Positions 2-12,408 of a DNA stretch of 25,278 nucleotides are shown here, piece by piece. Numbering within the stretch: position 1 is the stretch's first letter; every line of letters begins with the position of its first letter. Origin of the DNA: a virus. The stretch is from IMG/VR virus record IMGVR_UViG_3300007346_000206, positions 1 to 25,278 of that record; one strand, given 5' to 3'. Under the pieces are notes generated by a model. That model was given only the letters and a program-made list of their open reading frames with translations. It did no database searches and was not told the origin of the DNA. Position numbers and translations under genes: made by a program.

Positions 2-1153
2 AAAGTTTGGTCAATGCTAAACCGAGAAGTAAATGCTCTCGCTATGCTATCAAAGCGACCTTACACTTCTTCCGGTTGGAGAATTCTTAAGAGCCGACCA
101 TTTGGTGGTTCCGGTTCTACTCTAGCAGTTGATATTACAGGTGACGGTTCATCAGCAAACGGTATTGGTGGAGATAACCCACACGCTGACGAAATTGGTG
201 GTGTTCCAGAAAACGCAGGACTTTCTACTGCGGCTGACGGACTTGGCTCTATGGCCCCAACTTACGCTCAACTCTTTATGAGTCCTAAAACCATTGCACA
301 TCAGTTCGATATTTCCGAACTAGCAATGGAAATGGCTCAAATTGATGATGGACTCGGTGATATTCGGGCTATTATCCGTGAAGATATGGGTAAAGCACAC
401 GCAGAAGCACAGAACAAGATGCTCCTTATGCCTCTACAAGTTTATGGTGAAGTTTCCGCTCTAGCAAACATTGAGCGAAACTACACTTCCTTGATGAAGG
501 TTGTTTCAAGCCGAGCAGAACTACTAGCGGCTGACGGTGGAGTTCTTATGACCGATACAATGAATGATGCTACAAACAATCTTGCTCAAATCTATGGCGA
601 TGAGCGATTTACTGCGGCTTCTTTCCTTGATGCAGAAATAGACTTCAACAGTTCTTACGCCGCATCTTCGGTTCGACCACTAACTCTTACTTTGCTTAAC
701 AACATGATTCGTAATCTACGAATTGCTGGCGGTTCTCCAAAGGTTATCTTGACTGGATACGATACTATCCAAGCAATTGCAGACCTACTACAGTCCCAAG
801 AGCGATTCATGGACCGAAAGGAAATCGTTCCTACTCATAATGGTGTTCGTGGTATTAGGGGTGCAGAAGTTGGTTTCCGTGTGGCAACCTACTACGACAT
901 TCCATTGATTCCTGTTAAGGACATGGCTTCAACCCTAAACGCTTCCGATAGTGGAATTAGCGACTTGTTGTTCTTGGATACTGACCATCTATGGCTCTCT
1001 GTTCTTAAGCCGACTCAATACTTTGAAGACGGTGTTTCTAACGGAAACCCATTCGGTGTGGGACGACTCGGCAACCAAGCACTTTACCGAACTATTGGTG
1101 AAGTTGGTTGCTCTTTCTTCAAGGGACAAGGCAAGATTACCAATGTGGCTTGA
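2..1153 (+). CDS. Major capsid protein (HK97-fold type), 5' partial
   Basis: Builds the icosahedral capsid shell. The reading frame is open from base 2, and the first ATG in the window (base 14) has no ribosome site before it, so the true start probably lies upstream and the gene is 5' partial. Visible from the base-14 ATG are 379 residues. A long helical stretch (about 105-145, rich in Ala, Met, Glu and Lys) fits the spine helix. A later block reads like the P-domain and A-domain of HK97-type capsid proteins: a PKVILTGYDTIQAIADLL helix, then the YYDIPLIPVKDM pattern and LFLDTDHLWLSVLKPTQYFED near the C-terminus. Its position ahead of small head genes and connectors agrees. The assignment rests on sequence pattern and gene order; I could not run a structure comparison. 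Confidence 0.8.
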   Translation, partial: KVWSMLNREVNALAMLSKRPYTSSGWRILKSRPFGGSGSTLAVDITGDGSSANGIGGDNPHADEIGGVPENAGLSTAADGLGSMAPTYAQLFMSPKTIAHQFDISELAMEMAQIDDGLGDIRAIIREDMGKAHAEAQNKMLLMPLQVYGEVSALANIERNYTSLMKVVSSRAELLAADGGVLMTDTMNDATNNLAQIYGDERFTAASFLDAEIDFNSSYAASSVRPLTLTLLNNMIRNLRIAGGSPKVILTGYDTIQAIADLLQSQERFMDRKEIVPTHNGVRGIRGAEVGFRVATYYDIPLIPVKDMASTLNASDSGISDLLFLDTDHLWLSVLKPTQYFEDGVSNGNPFGVGRLGNQALYRTIGEVGCSFFKGQGKITNVA

Positions 1154-2538: not shown

Positions 2539-2937
2539 TTGCCAGCATTGAATCACGACACTCGATTGATTATGACTATCCTATTCGTAGGTACAGTTAG
2601 TGGAGCGAATGTTTTCTTCTACGCTAAATTCGGTTTGAACTTTCCATATACCATTCTAATGCACGGCGTATTGTTTGGACTCATTACAGTAGGGTCCGTT
2701 ATGGTAATGAAGGCACTATTTGACTTGGCTCTTAATGACAAAATTGAGATGTGGCTTTTGGACAGAAGGATTACTGCTTATTGGCAAAGAATCGCTAAAG
2801 ATGAACAACAAAGAAAGAAGATGCAAGATTCTTTGAAGACATTTCAAAACGAAAATCAAACTAATAGAATACCCCAAATTTCTCCGCAATATGAAACTGA
2901 GGGAGTTTCAGCCGATTTCTTAGCCACCCTGCAATGA
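2539..2937 (+). CDS. Two-span membrane protein, unknown function
   Basis: A 132-residue protein starting at TTG 2539 after TGAGGTG. Two strongly hydrophobic segments are clear: about residues 10-30 (IMTILFVGTVSGANVFFYA) and 37-60 (TILMHGVLFGLITVGSVMVM). They are followed by a charged, helical C-terminal region (about 68-100, Lys/Arg/Glu/Gln-rich, likely coiled) and a polar tail. By the positive-inside tendency the long C-terminal part would face the cytoplasm. It is the first gene of a run that continues with another membrane protein, a membrane-anchored GTPase and an HExxH protein, so it may be a partner of these. A holin-like role is possible but not supported by position. No family is recognised. 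Confidence 0.45.
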   Translation: MPALNHDTRLIMTILFVGTVSGANVFFYAKFGLNFPYTILMHGVLFGLITVGSVMVMKALFDLALNDKIEMWLLDRRITAYWQRIAKDEQQRKKMQDSLKTFQNENQTNRIPQISPQYETEGVSADFLATLQ

Positions 2938-2946
2938 GGTGGTTGA

Positions 2947-3177
2947 ATGGTTCTTGGCGACATAATGGGTTTCAGTGACTCCGACTATGCTTATAATCAA
3001 CAAAGAGCGCATTCTGCTGATTTGTTTTTTATTAAAATGAGAGCATGGTTTTGGGGCGGTTGTTCTACTTTATTTTTTTTCTTGGTAGGTAATATAATAG
3101 GTGTCGTTTTCGACATTAGTATTATGGGTTGGCTCATAGATAAGACAGTAAGTTTTTGGGATTATTTATGGCATTGA
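2947..3177 (+). CDS. Small single-span or two-span membrane protein
   Basis: A 76-residue protein starting at ATG 2947, a few bases after TGAGGTGG; an in-frame ATG at 2965 is a less likely start because it lies farther from the ribosome site. The N-terminal 30 residues are polar. Residues about 33-65 are hydrophobic and aromatic (WFWGGCSTLFFFLVGNIIGVVFD, then IMGWLI), giving one or two membrane segments, and the protein ends in a Trp-rich WDYLWH. It sits between the two-span protein and the GTPase with the same translation signal, so the three are probably made together. No known family is recognised. Confidence 0.45.
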   Translation: MVLGDIMGFSDSDYAYNQQRAHSADLFFIKMRAWFWGGCSTLFFFLVGNIIGVVFDISIMGWLIDKTVSFWDYLWH

Positions 3178-3186
3178 GGTATTCAA

Positions 3187-3849
3187 ATGTCTGTTCTAGC
3201 CGGTTTTGCTGTAGTTTGTATTGAAGCAACAGTGGCATTTTACAAGAGAATTCACGCTATCCAATTTGGAGTCTACGGGGCTACAATGGTAGGTAAGACT
3301 ACTTTACATCATCAACTTAGAACGAGAGGCGAAGTACCGGAAATTAGAGATAGAACTGTAGGTAGGCAAAGGGCTTCTAGAAAAACAATTAAGATGGACG
3401 GAGATACCCACACTGTTAAGACCGCAGATATGGGTGGGGAAGCAATTTATTGGAAGCAGTGGATTGACGATATACGAAGTAGAAATGTCAAATATGTCAT
3501 TTTTGTAGTAGACCATAGACATTTAGATTCTGCCGCTAATTTAGACCATCAACTTGCATGGAAGTTTTTAGTTGATGCTATTTGTAGTCAAACTTGGCCC
3601 AATGGTAAAAAGAAAAAGAATACCGATTACCCCCTAGCCGTTGGTATTTGGGCTAACAAGTATGACATTTGGGGAGATAAATACAAGGAAGATGTGGATA
3701 TTTCTAAGCATTCAATCTTCGCTCCATTTAAATATGGGATGCAACAGTTAAACGATAAGGGAATACCAACTTACAAGTATATTATTTCCGCTAAATCTCA
3801 GCCGGAAATGGTCTACAAGGGCGTTATTACAATGATAAAGGATTACTGA
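3187..3849 (+). CDS. Membrane-anchored small GTPase, Arf/Ras-superfamily-like
   Basis: A 220-residue P-loop GTPase. All five G-boxes are readable: G1 GATMVGKT (residues 31-38), a Thr candidate for switch I (46 or 57), G3 DMGG (81-84) followed by E and a nearby Trp, G4 NKYD (157-160) and G5 SAK (201-203). GKTTL plus D-x-GG-E resembles Arf/Sar1/SR-beta GTPases more than translation or signal-recognition GTPases. Residues 1-18 are hydrophobic and may insert in the membrane. A basic KKKKN insert precedes the G4 strand. The gene follows two small membrane-protein genes with the TGAGGT coupling signal and precedes an HExxH gene. The fold and nucleotide binding are strongly supported; biological role, partners and exact subfamily are unknown. 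Small GTPases are not part of standard tailed-virus morphogenesis. Confidence 0.8.
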   Translation: MSVLAGFAVVCIEATVAFYKRIHAIQFGVYGATMVGKTTLHHQLRTRGEVPEIRDRTVGRQRASRKTIKMDGDTHTVKTADMGGEAIYWKQWIDDIRSRNVKYVIFVVDHRHLDSAANLDHQLAWKFLVDAICSQTWPNGKKKKNTDYPLAVGIWANKYDIWGDKYKEDVDISKHSIFAPFKYGMQQLNDKGIPTYKYIISAKSQPEMVYKGVITMIKDY

Positions 3850-3853
3850 TATT

Positions 3854-4393
3854 ATGTGGAAGGATATTTTAAAAGTGGACAGATTCACTAATGAAGGGGG
3901 ATATAAAGGGGTCTATGATAAACAAACTGATGAGGTTTTAATCAACTTAGATAATTTTAATACAGTAGCAAGAGGCTATGACGATATGGAAAGAGTTGTT
4001 GAGTTTGCTAATGTAGTGACGCATGAATTATCCCACAGAGAATATGCAAAAGAATTAGGCAATAGCATGGATACAGTTCTTAAGGAATTGGACTCTATAG
4101 TTAAACAGTATGCAGAAGGTAATGCAACATTAGATTCTATTGGTGAAAAACTTAAAATTTTCTATAACTATGCTATTATCAATGAGTCATTTGCATTTGG
4201 AAGCGGAAAGGACTACGAAAGATTGAGTCATTTAGATGGAACAAAAAGTTCAGTTAGGTCTGTAATGTCTCAGGTTAATAATCACATTAGAAAACTAGTA
4301 GGTAAAAAAGACAGGCAGTTGGAAAAAATGTTGTCTAGGCTTTATGATGAAACCATGAGAGCAATTAGAAAGGTAAGAGATGGTAGCGCATAG
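3854..4393 (+). CDS. HExxH zincin-like putative metalloprotease
   Basis: A 179-residue protein with the zinc-protease signature HELSH at residues 57-61, set in a helix (VVTHELSHREYAKELG). A later NESF at 110-113 offers a glutamate (E111) as possible third zinc ligand, as in gluzincins. No signal peptide or membrane segment is visible, so it would act in the cytoplasm or virion. The ATG at 3854, four bases after the GTPase stop, has no clear ribosome site, which points to coupling with the GTPase. The N-terminus MWKDILK recurs in the gene at 8635 (MWKNILK). It could process virion or envelope proteins or act at entry or egress. The classical prohead protease is a serine enzyme and this is not one. 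Catalytic activity is inferred from the motif only. Confidence 0.55.
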   Translation: MWKDILKVDRFTNEGGYKGVYDKQTDEVLINLDNFNTVARGYDDMERVVEFANVVTHELSHREYAKELGNSMDTVLKELDSIVKQYAEGNATLDSIGEKLKIFYNYAIINESFAFGSGKDYERLSHLDGTKSSVRSVMSQVNNHIRKLVGKKDRQLEKMLSRLYDETMRAIRKVRDGSA

Positions 4394-4437: not shown

Positions 4438-5067
4438 ATGTTTCAACAGCCCAACCTAATCGCCAACAATCCTAGTCTTGCTAGTTCGTTCTTGCCTCCT
4501 CTAATGAGCGCAAGAGCCGCAGGTCCGGTTTCCGAATATTCTTTCGTACAAATTAAACCAAAGAAGATGCTGAAAGAGATTACCAAAGTACTCAATGCAG
4601 AAAAAAAGAAATTCTTATTCATCAAGTACGGCTGGAAATTTAATCTAAAAGACCGTTGTGTTGTCTGTGGTGTCCACCATGTTTGGGATAACGGAGATTA
4701 CATGAGGCCACCTATTCCCCTAAGCCATGTGACTAAAGGTAGGCCGATGCGAGGTACTTACTGTCCCAAACACGCTACACATCACAGACAACTGGAAATG
4801 CTACAACAACAGATACTAGCAGATGAGCATGGTCTTGATTTCAAAGCGTTTATTCCAAAGCCTAGAATGCCCCAAGTTTTATCTAAGGGACCACTTACCA
4901 CACTATCAAAGGCCGATGTTATTTCTCTAGCGGCGATTGGTTGGGCGATAAGTCCACCCAAAACCGAAGGAGAAGAAAAACCCATTGAAGAATTAAACAG
5001 ACTCTCCTTAGAAATACGATTGGCAAGCGAAAGAATGGGCGAAATTATAAAAAAAGGTGAACAATGA
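4438..5067 (+). CDS. Zinc-ribbon protein of unknown function
   Basis: A 209-residue protein starting at ATG 4438 with GAGGA about seven bases upstream, after a 44-base gap. A probable zinc site is formed by C74-x2-C77 and C109-x2-H112, followed by H115 and H116, with a Trp/aromatic loop between the pairs. The C-terminal part (about 155-209) is acidic and helical. The spacing resembles a treble-clef or HNH-associated zinc knuckle, but I see no clear catalytic His-Asn pair, so a nuclease call would be unsafe. It overlaps the next gene by four bases (ATGA) and is probably translated with it. A structural or DNA-contacting role in the head or neck is possible. Confidence 0.5.
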   Translation: MFQQPNLIANNPSLASSFLPPLMSARAAGPVSEYSFVQIKPKKMLKEITKVLNAEKKKFLFIKYGWKFNLKDRCVVCGVHHVWDNGDYMRPPIPLSHVTKGRPMRGTYCPKHATHHRQLEMLQQQILADEHGLDFKAFIPKPRMPQVLSKGPLTTLSKADVISLAAIGWAISPPKTEGEEKPIEELNRLSLEIRLASERMGEIIKKGEQ

Positions 5068-5714
5068 TGGGCGTTTTTGGAACAAGCAATACAGCAGTTA
5101 TGGGCGCAGTACAAGCGCAGAATGATACTCAATTTAAGACGGTCAATAATCTTCTGTCTTTACAAGAGAACCATGTGGAAGAGTTCTTTCAATATCATGG
5201 TGAACAGTTCTTATCTAGTTTGGAGCAGTTGATGGAAGATGTAATTGATAGGAGCGTTAGTAAGATGCTCACTAAATTAGAGTTCTATCAAGATTCTACT
5301 ACTGGAAACATGAAGGTTAGTAGTGATAGTCTAAGAGAATACGAACAGATTACTCAAGAAAATATTGACTTGGATATGAACGCTATCTTAAATTCTGCCA
5401 TCAATTCGGAAATTATCAATCAAAGAAAAATGGCTAAACAACAATACCTAGAATCACAAGGATTTAGTGGAGCATCTAATCCCGCACAAGGTATGCCTCA
5501 ACAACCAATTCAACAAGGAACATATGGAGCAACAGGGCTAGCAATGAACAACGGAAGCGGCTACCCTATTCCTCCTAGTGGACAAGACAACTATGGTAGG
5601 CCATATTGGATTGACCCAAGCACAGGACAAATGAGTTATGAGCCTCCACAAAGCGGATTACACCTAGCCCAAAAAGCACAGAAATTAGCGGCTTGGGGCA
5701 AGTGGCTAATGTGA
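5064..5714 (+). CDS. Gln/Pro-rich probable virion protein
   Basis: A 216-residue protein whose ATG overlaps the previous stop (ATGA). Residues about 20-130 are helical and acidic with likely coiled-coil character (repeated Leu, Glu and Gln; LLSLQENHVEEFFQYH, LEQLMEDVIDRSVSKML). From about 140 the chain becomes Gln/Pro/Gly-rich and probably disordered, with the segment GRPYWIDPSTGQMSYEPP that looks like a short WW-type sequence. It ends in a helical AQKAQKLAAWGKWLM. I recognise no family. Oligomerisation through the coiled coil and a flexible tail would suit a scaffold or internal virion protein, which is inference only. Confidence 0.45.
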   Translation: MMGVFGTSNTAVMGAVQAQNDTQFKTVNNLLSLQENHVEEFFQYHGEQFLSSLEQLMEDVIDRSVSKMLTKLEFYQDSTTGNMKVSSDSLREYEQITQENIDLDMNAILNSAINSEIINQRKMAKQQYLESQGFSGASNPAQGMPQQPIQQGTYGATGLAMNNGSGYPIPPSGQDNYGRPYWIDPSTGQMSYEPPQSGLHLAQKAQKLAAWGKWLM

Positions 5715-5726
5715 AGGTGATTTACA

Positions 5727-7325
5727 TTGGTCAATTTCAAACTAAATCGTACAACGACTTACAACTTAGATAAGGATACCTTAGAAAAGGATATTGTAGA
5801 ATATATTTTTGATGAACACTTATCGAGCGAATCTAAAATTTTAGACGATTTAGATTCGCTCGATGGAACAGAAGAAAACTTTCAAGAATTTGTTGATAAA
5901 TTACAAGCAATAGTAGTTCCTTTAGAACAAAGAACTATTGCTAGTATTGTCAATGATGAATCGTATAATTTGAAAAACAAATTGAAAGACGAATACAGTG
6001 GGGGAGGGGGAGACAAAACTCCAATAATTCCTAGCCTACTTAATTATTCAATAAAGGATTTAGATGCTCCTAATTTACTGAAAAGAGTTTCCGGCTTTGG
6101 TTCTTTTTCCGAGTTTAGAAAGCCTACTAGTGAAGATATAGACGAGGCAAACATTGCGGCGGAACTATCGCCATTATTTAATCTAGATGAATTATCTGCA
6201 TTACAAGATAAAGTCTATGTGCGCCTAGGTAAAGTTCTTTTAGATGCAGTAGACGCTGGATTAGAAGAGGCTAAAGGTAAATTCACAGAAGAGAAATTCT
6301 TCAAGGGAGAACAATTCACTTTAGAAATAGACTTAGATGAAAAAGCGCAAGTGCTTAGAGAGCAAGGTATTGCAGAAGTTGTTAGACTTGAAACTGATAC
6401 AGAAAAAGTAAAGGCCATTGCTAGTTTAGAAGGCAAGGATGAATTAGACAAAGCCGCTAGTGAATTATTTTCTGCTGGAATTAAGTCTATGAAAAATACT
6501 GCTGGTGAAACCTTTTCAAGTTTGGATTTGGATGCAGGAGTTCTTGCTAAAATTATCCTTCTCACATTACCATCTGTTTTAGATTTAGACATTTCTAATA
6601 ATTTGAAATTGACATTGGATTTTAAAAGTAAGGGTGCAAGAAAATTGACCGAAGAAAAATCTCACGATTTCATAACAGAAGGAGTGAAGAGATTAGTAAA
6701 GCATGTTAAATCTACTGAGCCTAGAAGGGCTGTAGCCCAATTGAAAAAGAATATTCTTAGTACATTCAAAGAACTATCTCTAGTCAATAAAAAGAGGGAA
6801 GATGGTCTTCTATACGATGAAGATTTAAAGGAAGCAAAAAGATTGTATAAAAAACTAAACTCTTATGATACTGAATGGAAAGACCAACAACGGATTCCAG
6901 AGGCTGAAATACTAGCCGAGAAAACTGAAACTAAATTAGTTAAAATAGAGAAGTTTATGACTGCTGGATTTACTGATGCCATTAGTAGAGATGTTTTAGG
7001 AGCAAAGAATGAAGTTATTATTGAAATAACCCATGAATATACTGAATTAAAATTCACACAAATGGCTAATCTAAAAGTAAAAGGTCAAGGGGATGAAAGA
7101 GTAGGGAGCGCGACCCCTACAGAAAGACCACTAAAAATGAAAGAATCGGAAAGCGAAGAAGAATACGCTGAAAGAATGGCAAGTTATGGCTTGCCTCATC
7201 TTCGCTTAATAGGGGATGATTTAGCCGCACAACAAATATTTGTCTCGGATTTCATAAGCGAAATACTAGGAAACTTTGATGATTTAGAAGAAGAACTTGC
7301 CGAATTAAAAGAGAAGGTGATATAA
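5727..7325 (+). CDS. Large acidic head/neck-region protein, unknown
   Basis: A 532-residue protein starting at TTG 5727, about eight bases after AAGGTGA. It is rich in Glu, Lys, Asp and Leu, mostly helical by appearance, with a Gly-rich break SGGGGDKT at about residues 91-98. The C-terminus is a short acidic helix (DDLEEELAELKEKV). No catalytic motif, membrane segment or signal peptide is seen. It precedes the head-tail connector and overlaps it by one base (TAATG). It could be a virion-internal or scaffold-like protein, but scaffolds normally lie upstream of the capsid gene, so I leave the function open. The 5' part of the gene contains a 16-bp inverted repeat, listed separately. Confidence 0.45.
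   Translation: MVNFKLNRTTTYNLDKDTLEKDIVEYIFDEHLSSESKILDDLDSLDGTEENFQEFVDKLQAIVVPLEQRTIASIVNDESYNLKNKLKDEYSGGGGDKTPIIPSLLNYSIKDLDAPNLLKRVSGFGSFSEFRKPTSEDIDEANIAAELSPLFNLDELSALQDKVYVRLGKVLLDAVDAGLEEAKGKFTEEKFFKGEQFTLEIDLDEKAQVLREQGIAEVVRLETDTEKVKAIASLEGKDELDKAASELFSAGIKSMKNTAGETFSSLDLDAGVLAKIILLTLPSVLDLDISNNLKLTLDFKSKGARKLTEEKSHDFITEGVKRLVKHVKSTEPRRAVAQLKKNILSTFKELSLVNKKREDGLLYDEDLKEAKRLYKKLNSYDTEWKDQQRIPEAEILAEKTETKLVKIEKFMTAGFTDAISRDVLGAKNEVIIEITHEYTELKFTQMANLKVKGQGDERVGSATPTERPLKMKESESEEEYAERMASYGLPHLRLIGDDLAAQQIFVSDFISEILGNFDDLEEELAELKEKVI
5822..5864 (+). repeat. 16-bp perfect inverted repeat inside a coding region
   Basis: The left arm is 5822-5837 and the right arm 5849-5864, perfectly complementary over 16 bases (ATCGAGCGAATCTA and then AA), with an 11-base spacer 5838-5848. 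In RNA this is a strong hairpin about 95 bases into the gene starting at 5727. The encoded peptide around it is unremarkable (SSESKILDDLDSLDG). There is no T-tract after it, so it does not look like an intrinsic terminator. Confidence 0.7.
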
Positions 7326-8629
7326 TGCCAGTTGCATCCTCCCCCAGTGACTATACCTCGATTAACCCAAACTATGCTACAGGGCAAGGATTCTATACAG
7401 ATATTGGAGCAGTATCGGATTTACTACAGGTGACTCCATTTACTTCCGGTACTAATCCATCTGCCGCACAAGTCGGCTCAATCATTAAGAGAATAGAAGG
7501 AATGGTTGATGAGAAAATTAACCGTTCTTATCGACCTATCATTTGGAAGAATGAGTTCAAGGATTTTGAATTTACTCGCCATCCAATAATGTCTTATTAT
7601 GGAGGCTATGTAGGATTTATACAACTGCAACAGATGAAGATTAGAAAGATTGTAAGTCTAAGAGTTTGGGAAGGAAACGCCTATCGAGAATTGGCTTCTG
7701 CTCAAGCCTCGATTACTCTCCTAGAAAACTTTAGAGATATTCATTCTCTTATTTTCCAACTACCTAATAGTGGGGTTTCTTTTGAACTGTTAGCAGAAAA
7801 CGATGTTTCCGCTTTAGCAAACGATGAGTTTTGTACTACCTTCGGAATAAAGACTACCAATAATGAAATTGTTGATTTGATTAACGAAAAGTTTCCATCG
7901 AACACCTCCCAATTTACAGGAGCAACTGCTTCAAAGGAACTATCATCTAGTAATCTCAATGTTTCCGATTTTTTCTTCTCGCAGAAAGACGACCAAGACG
8001 GTACTAAAGTCTTAATTTCATCTTTATTATCCGGTGATGATGGAGCAGGTTGCACACTAAAGGCTACTATTCAACAGTCCTGTACTACTAGTAATACTAG
8101 CACTAGTTTAACTGTAGCCGATTCTAGTAAATTAGCAGTAGATATGGAAGTCACAGGAACTAATATTCCTTCTTCTACTACTATTTCTTCTATTGATACT
8201 TCAACTACTGTCACTCTTTCTAAAGCCGCTACGGGTTCTGCATCAAGCACACTAACCTTTACCACTACCAATGAAATCCCCACAGTTTGTTCTCTTGTAG
8301 CCTTTACTGACAAAGAAGACATGAAGCGTTTGGGCGACTTTTGGATGATGAGCGATGATGGAAGAATCTTCTTTTTGAAGAAGTATCCTTATCATAATAA
8401 GAACTCAATCATTGTTTCTTATGTTGCTGGTGATGGAAGAGTACCTTCTACAGTTCACGAAGCCACTACCAAATTAGTAGCGGCAGAAATTCTACGACAT
8501 GACGACCAAACAATAATGATTGCTGAAACCGGAGCAAACATATCAGCGAAGGAAAAGTACGATTTACTTCGTGCAGAAGGCTTGGCTCTTATTGATGGTA
8601 AGAAAGACTTAGTGTATATGTTGGATTGA
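7325..8629 (+). CDS. Head-tail connector/adaptor with inserted beta domain
   Basis: A 434-residue protein starting at ATG 7325, overlapping the upstream TAA by one base. The N-terminal part (about 20-90) contains QVGSIIKRIEGMVDEKINR, the helix pattern of gp6-like head-tail adaptor proteins that dock below the portal. The C-terminal part (about 345-434), with HEATTKLVAAEILR and a helix-rich end, also fits this fold. Between them, about residues 247-312, is a Ser/Thr-rich beta domain of the type M-E-V-T-G-T-x-I-P plus TTISSIDTSTTVTLS. This looks like an insertion and recurs in the gene at 9330. At 434 residues the protein is longer than usual adaptors, consistent with insertions. The connector call comes from the N-terminal pattern and location between head and tail genes. 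Confidence 0.5.
   Translation: MPVASSPSDYTSINPNYATGQGFYTDIGAVSDLLQVTPFTSGTNPSAAQVGSIIKRIEGMVDEKINRSYRPIIWKNEFKDFEFTRHPIMSYYGGYVGFIQLQQMKIRKIVSLRVWEGNAYRELASAQASITLLENFRDIHSLIFQLPNSGVSFELLAENDVSALANDEFCTTFGIKTTNNEIVDLINEKFPSNTSQFTGATASKELSSSNLNVSDFFFSQKDDQDGTKVLISSLLSGDDGAGCTLKATIQQSCTTSNTSTSLTVADSSKLAVDMEVTGTNIPSSTTISSIDTSTTVTLSKAATGSASSTLTFTTTNEIPTVCSLVAFTDKEDMKRLGDFWMMSDDGRIFFLKKYPYHNKNSIIVSYVAGDGRVPSTVHEATTKLVAAEILRHDDQTIMIAETGANISAKEKYDLLRAEGLALIDGKKDLVYMLD
8080..8265 (+). repeat. Inserted beta-domain segment, copy 1
   Basis: Encodes the Ser/Thr-rich beta domain (MEVTGT-x-IP, TTISSIDTSTTVTLS) within the connector gene. It matches the second copy at about 9643-9830 in protein pattern and partly in DNA: both carry GCAGTAG, then ATGGA, GTCACAGG and ATTCC in register (from 8135 here and 9699 there). 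Domain limits are approximate. Confidence 0.55.
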
Positions 8630-8634
8630 TTGGT

Positions 8635-9144
8635 ATGTGGAAAAACATATTAAAAAATAACAGTGGTGGTAAAACTCACATTCCTTATCACACTAAAGTA
8701 GAATTTATGAATGGTTTGTATCGGGAACTTTATGATACAATAGAAAGAAAGGAAGGACTTGAGGGTTTTGAGTTCAACAATGGAATGATTTATTTTCCTA
8801 ATTACATATTGAGTTTTAACCCAAATGTTGGTCGTCATAATGACGACTTTATACCAAAACCATTTGAAGAAATACAAATAATATTAGATGTAGATTGGTA
8901 TGATTTGTGGTATAGAGGGTTTGAAGACGAAATAAATGAAATTGCTGATGGTTTTGGCGAAGAATACAGATTAAAAGCAGAAGACCAAGGCGTTCATCCT
9001 GTTTATGAATACAATGCAGGTTCTCACAATAATGAAGCCGGTGGTACAATTAGTGTGTTTTCAAAAACCTCTAATTCATTCATTGAGTCTTTAATTAAAA
9101 ACATTCATAAAAAAATAGAAAGTAAATTTGACGGAAGGGATTGA
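8635..9144 (+). CDS. Probable neck or head-closure protein
   Basis: A 169-residue protein. I chose ATG 8635 over the in-frame TTG at 8626 because it gives the N-terminus MWKNILK, nearly identical to MWKDILK of the HExxH gene at 3854, where no earlier start is used. Neither start has a good ribosome site, so translation probably depends on coupling to the connector gene that ends at 8629. The sequence is aromatic and acidic (DVDWYDLWYRGFEDEINEIADGFG) with a helical C-terminus. Its place directly after the adaptor gene and before a tail terminator-like gene is where head-closure or tail-completion proteins are encoded. No family is recognised from sequence alone. Confidence 0.4.
   Translation: MWKNILKNNSGGKTHIPYHTKVEFMNGLYRELYDTIERKEGLEGFEFNNGMIYFPNYILSFNPNVGRHNDDFIPKPFEEIQIILDVDWYDLWYRGFEDEINEIADGFGEEYRLKAEDQGVHPVYEYNAGSHNNEAGGTISVFSKTSNSFIESLIKNIHKKIESKFDGRD
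8831..8847. repeat. 17-bp near-perfect palindrome
   Basis: GTCGTCAT, one spacer base, then ATGACGAC: eight-base arms in perfect inverted order within the coding region of the gene at 8635. It could be a protein-binding or hairpin site, or chance. Confidence 0.4.
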
Positions 9145-9145
9145 T

Positions 9146-9337
9146 ATGTTGAAGATTACTGAAACTCTAAACTCTTTGATAGATAAACACAAAGAGCGTC
9201 AATTAGAAATGGAAAGAGTTTCTACTATTCTAGGAATTGACATTTCTTTCTCGGATGAAGAATTGGCTAGGTTCATTGAAGAAGATTTAGAAAAGGCAAT
9301 CTCTCAATCAATAATGGAGGAAATGGTCTATGGATGA
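9146..9337 (+). CDS. Small helical acidic protein in the neck region
   Basis: A 63-residue protein. ATG 9146 is preferred to an upstream in-frame TTG at 9128, because GGAAGGGA lies eight bases before the ATG and because the TTG would overlap the previous gene. The sequence is almost entirely helical (SLIDKHKERQLEMERVSTIL, then DEELARFIEEDLEKAISQSI). No known motif is seen. It overlaps the start of the next gene by eight bases. It may be a small neck subunit or an assembly factor; the function is not determinable from the sequence. Confidence 0.4.
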   Translation: MLKITETLNSLIDKHKERQLEMERVSTILGIDISFSDEELARFIEEDLEKAISQSIMEEMVYG

Positions 9338-10049
9338 AGTCACTCTAATTCTAGATTTATTGGATAACAATTGGTCTTCTTCTGCCACTACCCTAAACCA
9401 AGCCGGTACTATTCCAGTAGCATTGCCTAAGCCAAACCTAGTCGATGTTAGAACTTTAGAGAAGGGGCAGGGTGCTAGGTATGACCTTTCTAGCAAAGAT
9501 GTAATTGTAGTTTTTGAGGATGGCAACACCATAGAATATCCTACGGTTCTTTATGATGTTCGCAACGAATCCTATACCTTCACACTACACCTTCGTTGTA
9601 TTCACGATGAGAGAGCCGTTGGTACTTCGCTCACAGGTTCGGGAGGAGCATACACAACAGGCAGTACCAACATGACCCTTACTTCAACTTCGGGTATCGC
9701 AGTAGGCATGGAGGTCACAGGTACAGGAATTCCAGATGGTACAACAGTATCTAGTATCACGAATAGCACTACTCTTGTTCTATCGGCTACACCAACTAAG
9801 GCAAGAACTGGACAGTCTATTAAGTTCAATTCAAGAGATTCTAATTACGGAAGAGATAGGTTAAGGTCTTTATACTTGATACTTCGTCATGCACTTGAGA
9901 GCAAACGACGGGGTTATACTGCAAGCGATGGTTCACACTTTAGTTTATTAGAAGTTGGAAATCGAAGCGAAGCAAATGACAGAAAGAAACGACTCTTTGG
10001 ATATAAAGTGACATTAACGGCAAAGAGATACGCACAGACAATCCCCTAG
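9330..10049 (+). CDS. Tail terminator-like / tail completion protein with beta insert
   Basis: A 239-residue protein starting at ATG 9330, eight bases inside the previous gene, with GGAGGA about ten bases upstream. Residues 1-100 and about 168-239 together look like a compact alpha/beta protein: strands SYTFTLHLRCIHDERA, helix RLRSLYLILRHALESKRRG, final strand LFGYKVTLTAKRYAQTIP. This order resembles tail terminator/tail completion proteins encoded just before the tail tube. Residues about 104-167 are an inserted Ser/Thr-rich beta domain (VGMEVTGTGIPDGTTVSSITNSTT) shared with the gene at 7325. The terminator role comes mainly from gene order and the C-terminal pattern. Confidence 0.5.
   Translation: MDEVTLILDLLDNNWSSSATTLNQAGTIPVALPKPNLVDVRTLEKGQGARYDLSSKDVIVVFEDGNTIEYPTVLYDVRNESYTFTLHLRCIHDERAVGTSLTGSGGAYTTGSTNMTLTSTSGIAVGMEVTGTGIPDGTTVSSITNSTTLVLSATPTKARTGQSIKFNSRDSNYGRDRLRSLYLILRHALESKRRGYTASDGSHFSLLEVGNRSEANDRKKRLFGYKVTLTAKRYAQTIP
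9643..9830 (+). repeat. Inserted beta-domain segment, copy 2
   Basis: Second copy of the beta domain found at about 8080-8265, within the tail terminator-like gene. The encoded core is VGMEVTGTGIPDGTTVSSI followed by a Thr-rich strand. Similar domains are widespread in structural proteins of marine tailed phages, where they are thought to be displayed on the virion surface. Limits are approximate. Confidence 0.55.
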
Positions 10050-11790: not shown

Positions 11791-11842
11791 TATTCCACCA
11801 ACACCGTTTGTTTGTTTGTTGGTTTTGAAGGTGGAGAAAACT
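11791..11842 (+). other. Longest tail-module gap with T/G-rich tract
   Basis: A 52-base gap before the chaperone gene, among the longest intergenic gaps in the window. It holds a weak inverted repeat (ACCAAC 11797-11802 and GTTGGT 11818-11823) around a run of three GTTT units, then a GAAGGTGGAG ribosome site. A T-rich stretch could be an archaeal-type termination or pausing site, but I see no clear TATA box or terminator. Confidence 0.25.
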
Positions 11843-12205
11843 ATGGAAAATACCGTAAAAGATAAGAGTGTGCTATTTGCACTACAAGAAGAGAAGTGTC
11901 ACGAATTAAGAGTGTCACCGGAAAGCGACGAATACCTTAAGGTTTGGATTAGAGAACCTACATGGCTAGAAGTAGAACAAGCCATGACTTCTCTAATGAA
12001 CATTGATGCCAAGACGCAAAGTTTTGACATCGACCTAAATGGAATGTACCGCTACCTAGTAGAGAAGTTTGTTGTTCGCACAGAACCAAGTCTATCTACT
12101 CTAGAACTAATTAGACTCACGCCGTATATCGGCTCACAATTGAAAGAAGTGCTACCTAACCCAATGGAAGCACTAGGCGAGGATTCAGCAAAAAACGAAG
12201 AGTGA
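11843..12205 (+). CDS. Tail assembly chaperone (gpG-like)
   Basis: A 120-residue protein that assists tape measure folding and tube assembly around it. I chose ATG 11843, eight bases or so after GGTGGAG, over the TTG in frame at 11816, which lies in the T/G-rich gap. The sequence fits gpG-like chaperones: a beta start (ELRVSPESDEYLKVWIREPTWLEVEQAM), then helices (DLNGMYRYLVEKFVV, then LELIRLTPYIGSQLKEVL) and an acidic end. It lies between tail tube and tape measure as expected. Near its 3' end is a canonical -1 slippery heptamer, A_AAA_AAC at 12190-12196, so a fraction of ribosomes should extend it into the next ORF. Confidence 0.65.
   Translation: MENTVKDKSVLFALQEEKCHELRVSPESDEYLKVWIREPTWLEVEQAMTSLMNIDAKTQSFDIDLNGMYRYLVEKFVVRTEPSLSTLELIRLTPYIGSQLKEVLPNPMEALGEDSAKNEE
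12190..12196 (+). promoter_or_regulatory. Programmed -1 ribosomal frameshift site A_AAA_AAC
   Basis: The heptamer reads A AAA AAC with AAA and AAC in the zero frame of the gene at 11843, the X_XXY_YYZ type. The zero-frame stop TGA follows at 12203-12205. After a -1 slip the next codons are CGA, AGA, GTG, entering the 12202 frame directly with no stop. The predicted fusion is about 188 residues: 118 from the first ORF, two junction arginines and 68 from the second. This matches the conserved G/GT frameshift of tailed phages. Confidence 0.7.
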
Positions 12206-12408
12206 GAGATGCCCTTAACGGTAGGAGTAAAGACCCTGCTATGGCATCTCTCTTAATCACCTATACATTGTCTAGCGCATTATCAATAAGTCCCTTAGAA
12301 GTGATGCAAATGCCAGCAAGTATGGTGATGGACTTTTTGTATATCCACAGGAATGTAGAAGAACTTAAAGCCGAAGCCATGAACAAGGAAATGAATAAGG
12401 CGAAGTGA
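12202..12408 (+). CDS. Frameshifted C-terminal (T) part of the tail assembly chaperone
   Basis: A 68-residue ORF in the -1 frame relative to the chaperone gene. It can start on its own at GTG 12202, which overlaps the upstream stop (GTGA), but its placement after an A_AAA_AAC site indicates that it is mainly the extension made by frameshifting. The product is helical (MASLLITYTLSSALSISPLEVM, then MDFLYIHRNVEELKAEAM). The helix and the composition fit the T domain that binds the tape measure protein, encoded immediately downstream at 12413. It is too short to be a stand-alone enzyme. The gap to the tape measure start is only four bases. Confidence 0.65.
   Translation: MRDALNGRSKDPAMASLLITYTLSSALSISPLEVMQMPASMVMDFLYIHRNVEELKAEAMNKEMNKAK

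Follow-up and report, generated by a model that had tools for sequence, protein, structure and literature searches.

Why should a tailed virus carry, among the genes that build its particle, a protein with the appearance of a small GTPase, and what might such a protein do there? The question is raised by IMG/VR virus record IMGVR_UViG_3300007346_000206, of which positions 1 to 25,278 were analysed (25,278 nucleotides, hereafter the window). Small GTPases of this kind run membrane traffic in human cells. An earlier note, made from the letters of the window, had read five GTPase boxes and a hydrophobic N-terminus in one open reading frame, and all of these elements are present (GATMVGKT, Thr57, DMGGE, NKYD and SAK), as listed below with their conservation over 213 distinct homologues.

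3187..3849, + strand: small GTPase open reading frame, 220 aa, with an ATG start; the stop of the previous gene lies 9 bases upstream
3190..3252, + strand: N-terminal hydrophobic helix, aa 2-22, a putative membrane contact (from the structural model and hydrophobicity)
3277..3300, + strand: G1 / Walker A, GATMVGKT, aa 31-38; G31, G36, K37 and T38 in 212/213 homologues
3355..3357, + strand: switch I Thr57 (in RT), G2; 213/213 homologues
3427..3441, + strand: G3 / switch II, DMGGE, aa 81-85; D81 and the second G (G84) both 213/213
3655..3666, + strand: G4, NKYD, aa 157-160, guanine specificity; N157, K158 and D160 each 213/213
3787..3795, + strand: G5, SAK, aa 201-203; SA in 145/213, AT in 68/213, third position mostly K

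IMG/VR was scanned for relatives, the queries being the window protein, profiles and two divergent members, and these scans revealed that more than 500 marine viral contigs encode one (at least 536 confirmed relatives in a single scan). By identity the relatives fall into three clades, namely A1, to which the window belongs (~70-100%), A2 (59-65%) and B (~30-36%). Apart from the residues listed above, T39 is retained in 212/213 homologues (99.5%, as are the Walker A residues) and G83 in 206/213 (96.7%), with Ala in the other seven, while the window's own clades retain SAK and the distant clade has AT followed mostly by K, R or N. Since the G boxes are invariant, nucleotide binding by the viral protein is very likely. 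The position of the catalytic Gln (85) is occupied by Glu in 150, Gln in 58 and Asp in 5 of the 213 homologues, and by Glu in all 85 distinct A1 loci. The Q61E variant of Ras hydrolyses GTP faster than the wild type, and therefore Glu at this position is no argument against activity. The earlier note had made its reading depend on homologues keeping NKxD and DxxG, and they keep both. Comparison of the window GTPase with four close relatives gave dN/dS values of 0.03-0.10, and the gene is under strong purifying selection; together with the 213 homologues, these values rule out a chance open reading frame.

Prediction of the structure with AlphaFold2 from an alignment of 58 diverse members yielded a model with pLDDT 87.5 and pTM 0.85 (a model from a shallow alignment, pLDDT 59, was not used), in which strands and helices alternate as in Ras after a helix at residues 2-22. 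Foldseek comparison of this model with the PDB retrieved 1,572 chains at E <0.001, among them Rab1, Rab6, Rab5, Ras and Arl1, the lowest E being 1e-10; the structural check proposed by the earlier note thus led to Rab/Ras/Arl proteins and not to an ATPase. These matches, together with the invariant NKxD, rule out a non-GTPase P-loop protein such as an ATPase. On the joint evidence of sequence signature and predicted fold, it is confirmed that 3187-3849 encodes a genuine small GTPase, of the Ras-like class of TRAFAC P-loop proteins.

The protein stays below every curated Pfam and NCBIfam cut-off, with sub-threshold matches to small GTPases only. The best single Pfam match was SRPRB at 19.2 bits (cut-off 25; E 8e-4), accompanied by MMR_HSR1 at 17.6 bits (cut-off 21.9; E 4e-3), Roc (E 5e-3) and Ras (E 0.03), and TIGR00231 scored 25.1 bits (cut-off 42.5; E 1e-5). 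A profile search of PDB sequences returned Rab33B and 8oun. No meaningful PHROG family match was obtained, the window GTPase had 0 matches in 50,697 annotated phage records, and the distant-clade (B) GTPase found nothing credible in annotated phages or in plasmids. Full-text literature searches for a small GTPase in archaeal tailed viruses or phages, or for magroviruses with a GTPase, brought up nothing relevant, earlier annotation in a table being possible. The view that small GTPases lie outside the standard tailed-virus gene sets is borne out by these searches, as none of the phage family libraries, annotated phage records and papers searched contains the combination.

Among viral structure models (BFVD), giant-virus proteins made up nearly all of the 50 matches listed and were mostly annotated as Ras/Rab/Ran-type GTPases, and no named prokaryotic-virus protein was among those 50. 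The giant-virus Rab/Ras proteins (Pithovirus, Edafosvirus, Mimiviridae) are likewise virus-encoded small GTPases and the best viral structural matches, but their viruses have eukaryotic hosts and unrelated capsids, whereas the present GTPase gene is a conserved core gene of a tailed archaeal virus and lies near its capsid gene. With regard to cellular homologues, a degenerate-pattern search of a genome collection of 84,980 species, which could miss distant ones, found no close one except in virus-like contigs. Recent capture of a host gene is unsupported, because the only matches in that collection are three viral-looking contigs in marine bacterial metagenome-assembled genomes (MAGs). As a separate observation, contigs resembling these archaeal viruses (L082, L083 and L084) lie inside public marine MAGs labelled Maricaulis and Cytophagaceae, and one Maricaulis MAG holds three different members of the GTPase family.

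The genomic setting was found to be that of a tailed-virus structural operon, in agreement with the earlier note: a major capsid protein (MCP) gene lies upstream of the GTPase, and a tail tube protein (PF18906) and a tape measure are encoded downstream.

2..1153, + strand: MCP, with its 5' end cut at the window edge (Pfam SU10_MCP E 5e-6; phrog_24667 E 3e-17)

Two further features of this region may be recorded. Short overlapping open reading frames at 11816-12205 and 12202-12408, before the tape-measure gene, are arranged as in frameshifted tail assembly chaperones, of which one is annotated in HCTV-1. A similar insert of ~70 residues (MEVTGTxIPxxTTxSSIxxSTTxxLS) occurs at 7325-8629 and 9330-10049, a domain repeated in two nearby structural genes.

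The MCP of the window is ~25% identical to those of Druskaviridae. Long related contigs measure 58-109 kb, save one 34-kb fragment and one 184-kb record; 18/22 long relatives encode a Cpn60/thermosome (11/15 in clade A, 7/7 in clade B) and 21/23 a family-B DNA polymerase (PolB), whose matches are split into two separate pieces in most clade-A records. A PolB in two pieces is also described for Aoguangviridae in the ICTV profile. One of the records, G015 (the record of L063; 184,733 bases), carries both the thermosome gene and the set of PolB pieces in duplicate, ~90 kb apart, and probably joins the genomes of two related viruses. Thermosome, PolB and Druskaviridae-like MCP are shared by the window group with Magrovirales (Aoguangviridae, Apasviridae) and Druskaviridae. 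The features by which Magrovirales are recognized, a Druskaviridae-related HK97 MCP, PolB, a chaperonin and a genome of 85-110 kb, were all found when scored on the long relatives, the window being a 25-kb piece. From this pattern of genes, the window virus very probably belongs to Magrovirales, and its host, as judged from the virus group and its magrovirus features, is therefore very probably a member of Poseidoniales, which are abundant ocean archaea. A GTPase is mentioned in neither of the two ICTV profiles consulted for this comparison, and neither 25 kb around the MCP of the druskavirus HCTV-1 nor the MCP regions of two methanogen viruses matched profiles of the GTPase or of the neighbouring genes described below.

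How regularly the gene accompanies the capsid gene was assessed in a sample drawn by MCP profile, so that GTPase-positive loci were not preselected. The GTPase lies 1.6-2.8 kb downstream of the MCP in 62 of 80 MCP-bearing contigs; in the remaining 18 the sequence runs out no more than 3.5 kb from the MCP. Among contigs that are long enough it is thus present in 62/62, a universality that holds for the group sampled, the 80 closest MCPs at ~76% identity or more. Since every related virus in which this could be checked has the GTPase, it is probably a working part of virus building or of exit from the cell.

The genes on either side of it are fixed as well. Their presence was counted only in loci with enough flanking sequence, which amounted to 69 A1 and 45 A2 loci (114 of clade A) and 55 of clade B. 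The order of five genes is fixed, with the GTPase in the middle; the four companions and one inserted gene are as follows.

2539..2937, + strand: gene -2, membrane protein of 132 aa with two predicted N-terminal transmembrane (TM) segments and a charged, coiled-coil-like C-terminal part; A1 69/69, A2 45/45
2947..3177, + strand: gene -1, small TM-containing membrane protein, 76 aa; A1 68/69, A2 45/45
3854..4393, + strand: lineage-specific insert gene with HELSH (HExxH), 179 aa, beginning MWKDILK; outside the conserved core
4438..5067, + strand: gene +1, Cys/His-motif protein, 209 aa; A1 69/69, A2 45/45, B 55/55
5064..5714, + strand: gene +2, FGTSN protein, a partner of 216 aa; A1 69/69, A2 45/45

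Over clade A as a whole, the TM-containing -2 protein is present in 114/114 loci and the small -1 protein in 113/114. Clade B repeats the size order of the cassette. Its Cys/His protein and the protein in the FGTSN position are related to those of clade A in profile comparisons (E 1e-66 and E 9e-11, respectively), and its -2 and -1 slots also hold TM-containing proteins, that in the -1 slot of ~80 aa, with no detectable sequence homology to those of clade A (hhalign probability <1%). C74, C109 and H112 of the Cys/His protein are conserved (99%); metal binding by this protein is unproven, because these are the only three Cys/His residues common to both clades. The strict linkage of the GTPase with two membrane proteins upstream and two soluble partners downstream persists between clades with ~33% GTPase identity. 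In two clade-B genomes (G020 and G021) the MCP lies ~20 kb from the GTPase and the cassette is intact; the cassette is therefore held together for its own sake, which points to genes that work together.

Some A1 loci have extra genes between the core genes of the cassette. The HExxH gene at 3854-4393 was ruled out as a part of the module, as other A1 loci have unrelated genes or none in this slot. Its product, encoded between the GTPase and Cys/His genes only in close relatives, is a possible metallopeptidase cargo, and the different genes found in this slot elsewhere in A1 carry MWxxILK tags. The tag is the commonest form of an N-terminal peptide, Trp-x-x-Ile/Leu/Val-Leu/Ile-Lys within the first 20 residues, which was seen in 105 distinct proteins of 43 otherwise unrelated groups; MWxxILK occurs in clades A and B, and in the window at 3854-3874 and 8635-8655. 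When the pattern was relaxed to [WF]xx[ILV][LVI]K, the first ten residues held 115 match starts and most of the later ten-residue bins 1-23, the bin of residues 90-99 being an exception (107 matches). Stretches of the form ILKS or LLKxAG are also carried by the N-terminal regions of the putative prohead protease and the MCP of related loci. The peptide may serve to sort proteins, for instance by targeting them to the capsid.

The N-terminus of the GTPase and its closest neighbours bear on where it would act. Residues 1-18 form a hydrophobic stretch in the sequence, the N-terminus is hydrophobic in most homologues, and the predicted helix has a mean Fauchere-Pliska hydrophobicity of 0.86 with a moment of only 0.28, values more in keeping with a helix that is buried or inserted in a membrane than with a classical amphipathic helix. 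As this helix is accompanied by two membrane proteins as fixed neighbours, we favour a switch attached to the membrane late in infection. The low amphipathic moment and a conserved Glu13 within the helix speak against a membrane reading, and the helix may instead pack on the GTPase domain. The proposal of the earlier note that the virus brings a membrane switch into assembly, entry or egress is strengthened by the TM-containing upstream neighbours in both clades; the switch itself and its role in any of these steps are what we infer.

A functional GTPase that belongs invariably to a late module associated with the membrane, for virion assembly or exit in magrovirus-type tailed viruses, is accordingly put forward as a tentative reading, with a chance approaching but short of even. 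The protein would cycle between GTP and GDP, and in one nucleotide state it would be anchored at the cytoplasmic membrane of the host by its hydrophobic helix together with the two small membrane proteins. Its regulators or effectors (GAP/GEF-like or scaffold) could be the Cys/His protein, the FGTSN protein or both, and late in infection the switch would set up a place on the membrane for assembly or exit, with capsid assembly at the membrane, membrane remodelling, lysis and egress as candidate steps. Its mode of action would be that of a small GTPase recruited to membranes, and in function it would compare with Arf, or with archaeal ArvA and its partners. A more ambitious version, in which GTPase, two membrane proteins, Cys/His regulator and effector constitute a dedicated GTP-switched membrane-remodelling machine obligatory for assembly or exit, is doubtful at present; to our knowledge no such machine has been described in Caudoviricetes.

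The position of the GTPase between capsid and tail genes in the same tight operon, and its universal company with the capsid gene in the sampled group, would also be expected of a minor virion protein or soluble morphogenesis factor whose GTP hydrolysis sets the timing of a step in head or neck assembly, with the membrane proteins serving another task. This explanation appears unlikely in view of the two membrane proteins that are its closest fixed neighbours in clades A and B, its own hydrophobic N-terminus and the cassettes that stand ~20 kb away from the MCP in two clade-B genomes.

The viral protein shares with Rab1, Rab6, Rab33B, Ras and Arl1 the fold (TM-score up to 0.74, target-normalised), the size and the G1-G4 motifs, but differs from Ras-like GTPases in an identity of only 14-20%, in GGE in place of the catalytic Gln in most members, in a longer switch-I/interswitch stretch in clade B, and in its N-terminal hydrophobic helix and virus-specific partners. 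Likeness to Arf and Asgard ArfR, which the earlier note had suggested, holds for the DxGG doublet (DIGGQxxFWNLW in clade B), for the hydrophobic helix directly before the first strand, and for the alignment with 8oun (deposited as 'GTP-binding protein'), which runs through the N-terminal helix and the Arf-typical DxGGQ..W stretch. It fails at Gly2, the myristoylation site (Ser stands at position 2 in 98.1%), at the Trp before the switch-II Asp, which is replaced by Ala/Ser, and at the invariant Gln, which is found in 58/213 only; there was no confident Pfam Arf match, and membership of the Arf family is not shown. For SR-beta, the SRPRB score lies under the cut-off, as given above.

A parallel in layout is offered by ArvA (OapA) of Haloferax, an archaeal small GTPase that drives membrane vesiculation and works with a nearby-encoded Zn-ribbon protein proposed as its GAP (PMC10927574). 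The likeness to ArvA with ArvB and ArvC consists in a small archaeal GTPase, an N-terminal membrane helix, a Cys-motif partner nearby and a euryarchaeal setting (PMC10927574), whereas the viral version has extra membrane proteins and sits in a virion-structure module. ArvB (DUF2073, PF09846) was found in 0/23 viral records, with positive controls in Haloferax volcanii and Methanosarcina acetivorans, and the Cys/His protein at 4438-5067 had no Pfam match at E<=1 to ArvC (DUF2072 Zn ribbon). The viral cassette resembles the ArvA system in layout, but ArvB and ArvC are not among its recognizable components.

Since archaeal hosts use such GTPases (PMC10927574) and the best, weak profile matches of the viral protein are SRPRB, Roc, MMR_HSR1, Ras and Arf, it could be supposed that it mimics or blocks a host GTPase of Arf, SR-beta or ArvA type and so alters secretion, vesicle release or surface proteins to the benefit of the virus. 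We consider this quite unlikely, for the gene is co-inherited with four virus genes across great divergence, it sits in the structure operon and not among accessory genes, and in the degenerate-pattern search it had no close cellular homologue beyond the virus-like contigs in marine MAGs. That the conserved cassette, with membrane proteins encoded in a structural module, is packaged and delivered with the DNA so that the GTPase and membrane proteins act at the membrane of the host as infection begins is very improbable, as the MWxxILK peptide that is frequent on accessory proteins is missing from all five cassette proteins of the window.

Overall, we present a virus-specific branch of small GTPases that is core to a group of tailed prokaryotic viruses, other viral members of the class having been found here only in giant eukaryotic viruses. 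The conserved GTPase with its fixed membrane partners constitutes a system that is testable in vitro and in Haloferax, and it bears on the spread of GTPase-controlled membrane events in archaea. The membrane-remodelling machine, if real, would give Arf/ArvA membrane traffic a counterpart among viruses.
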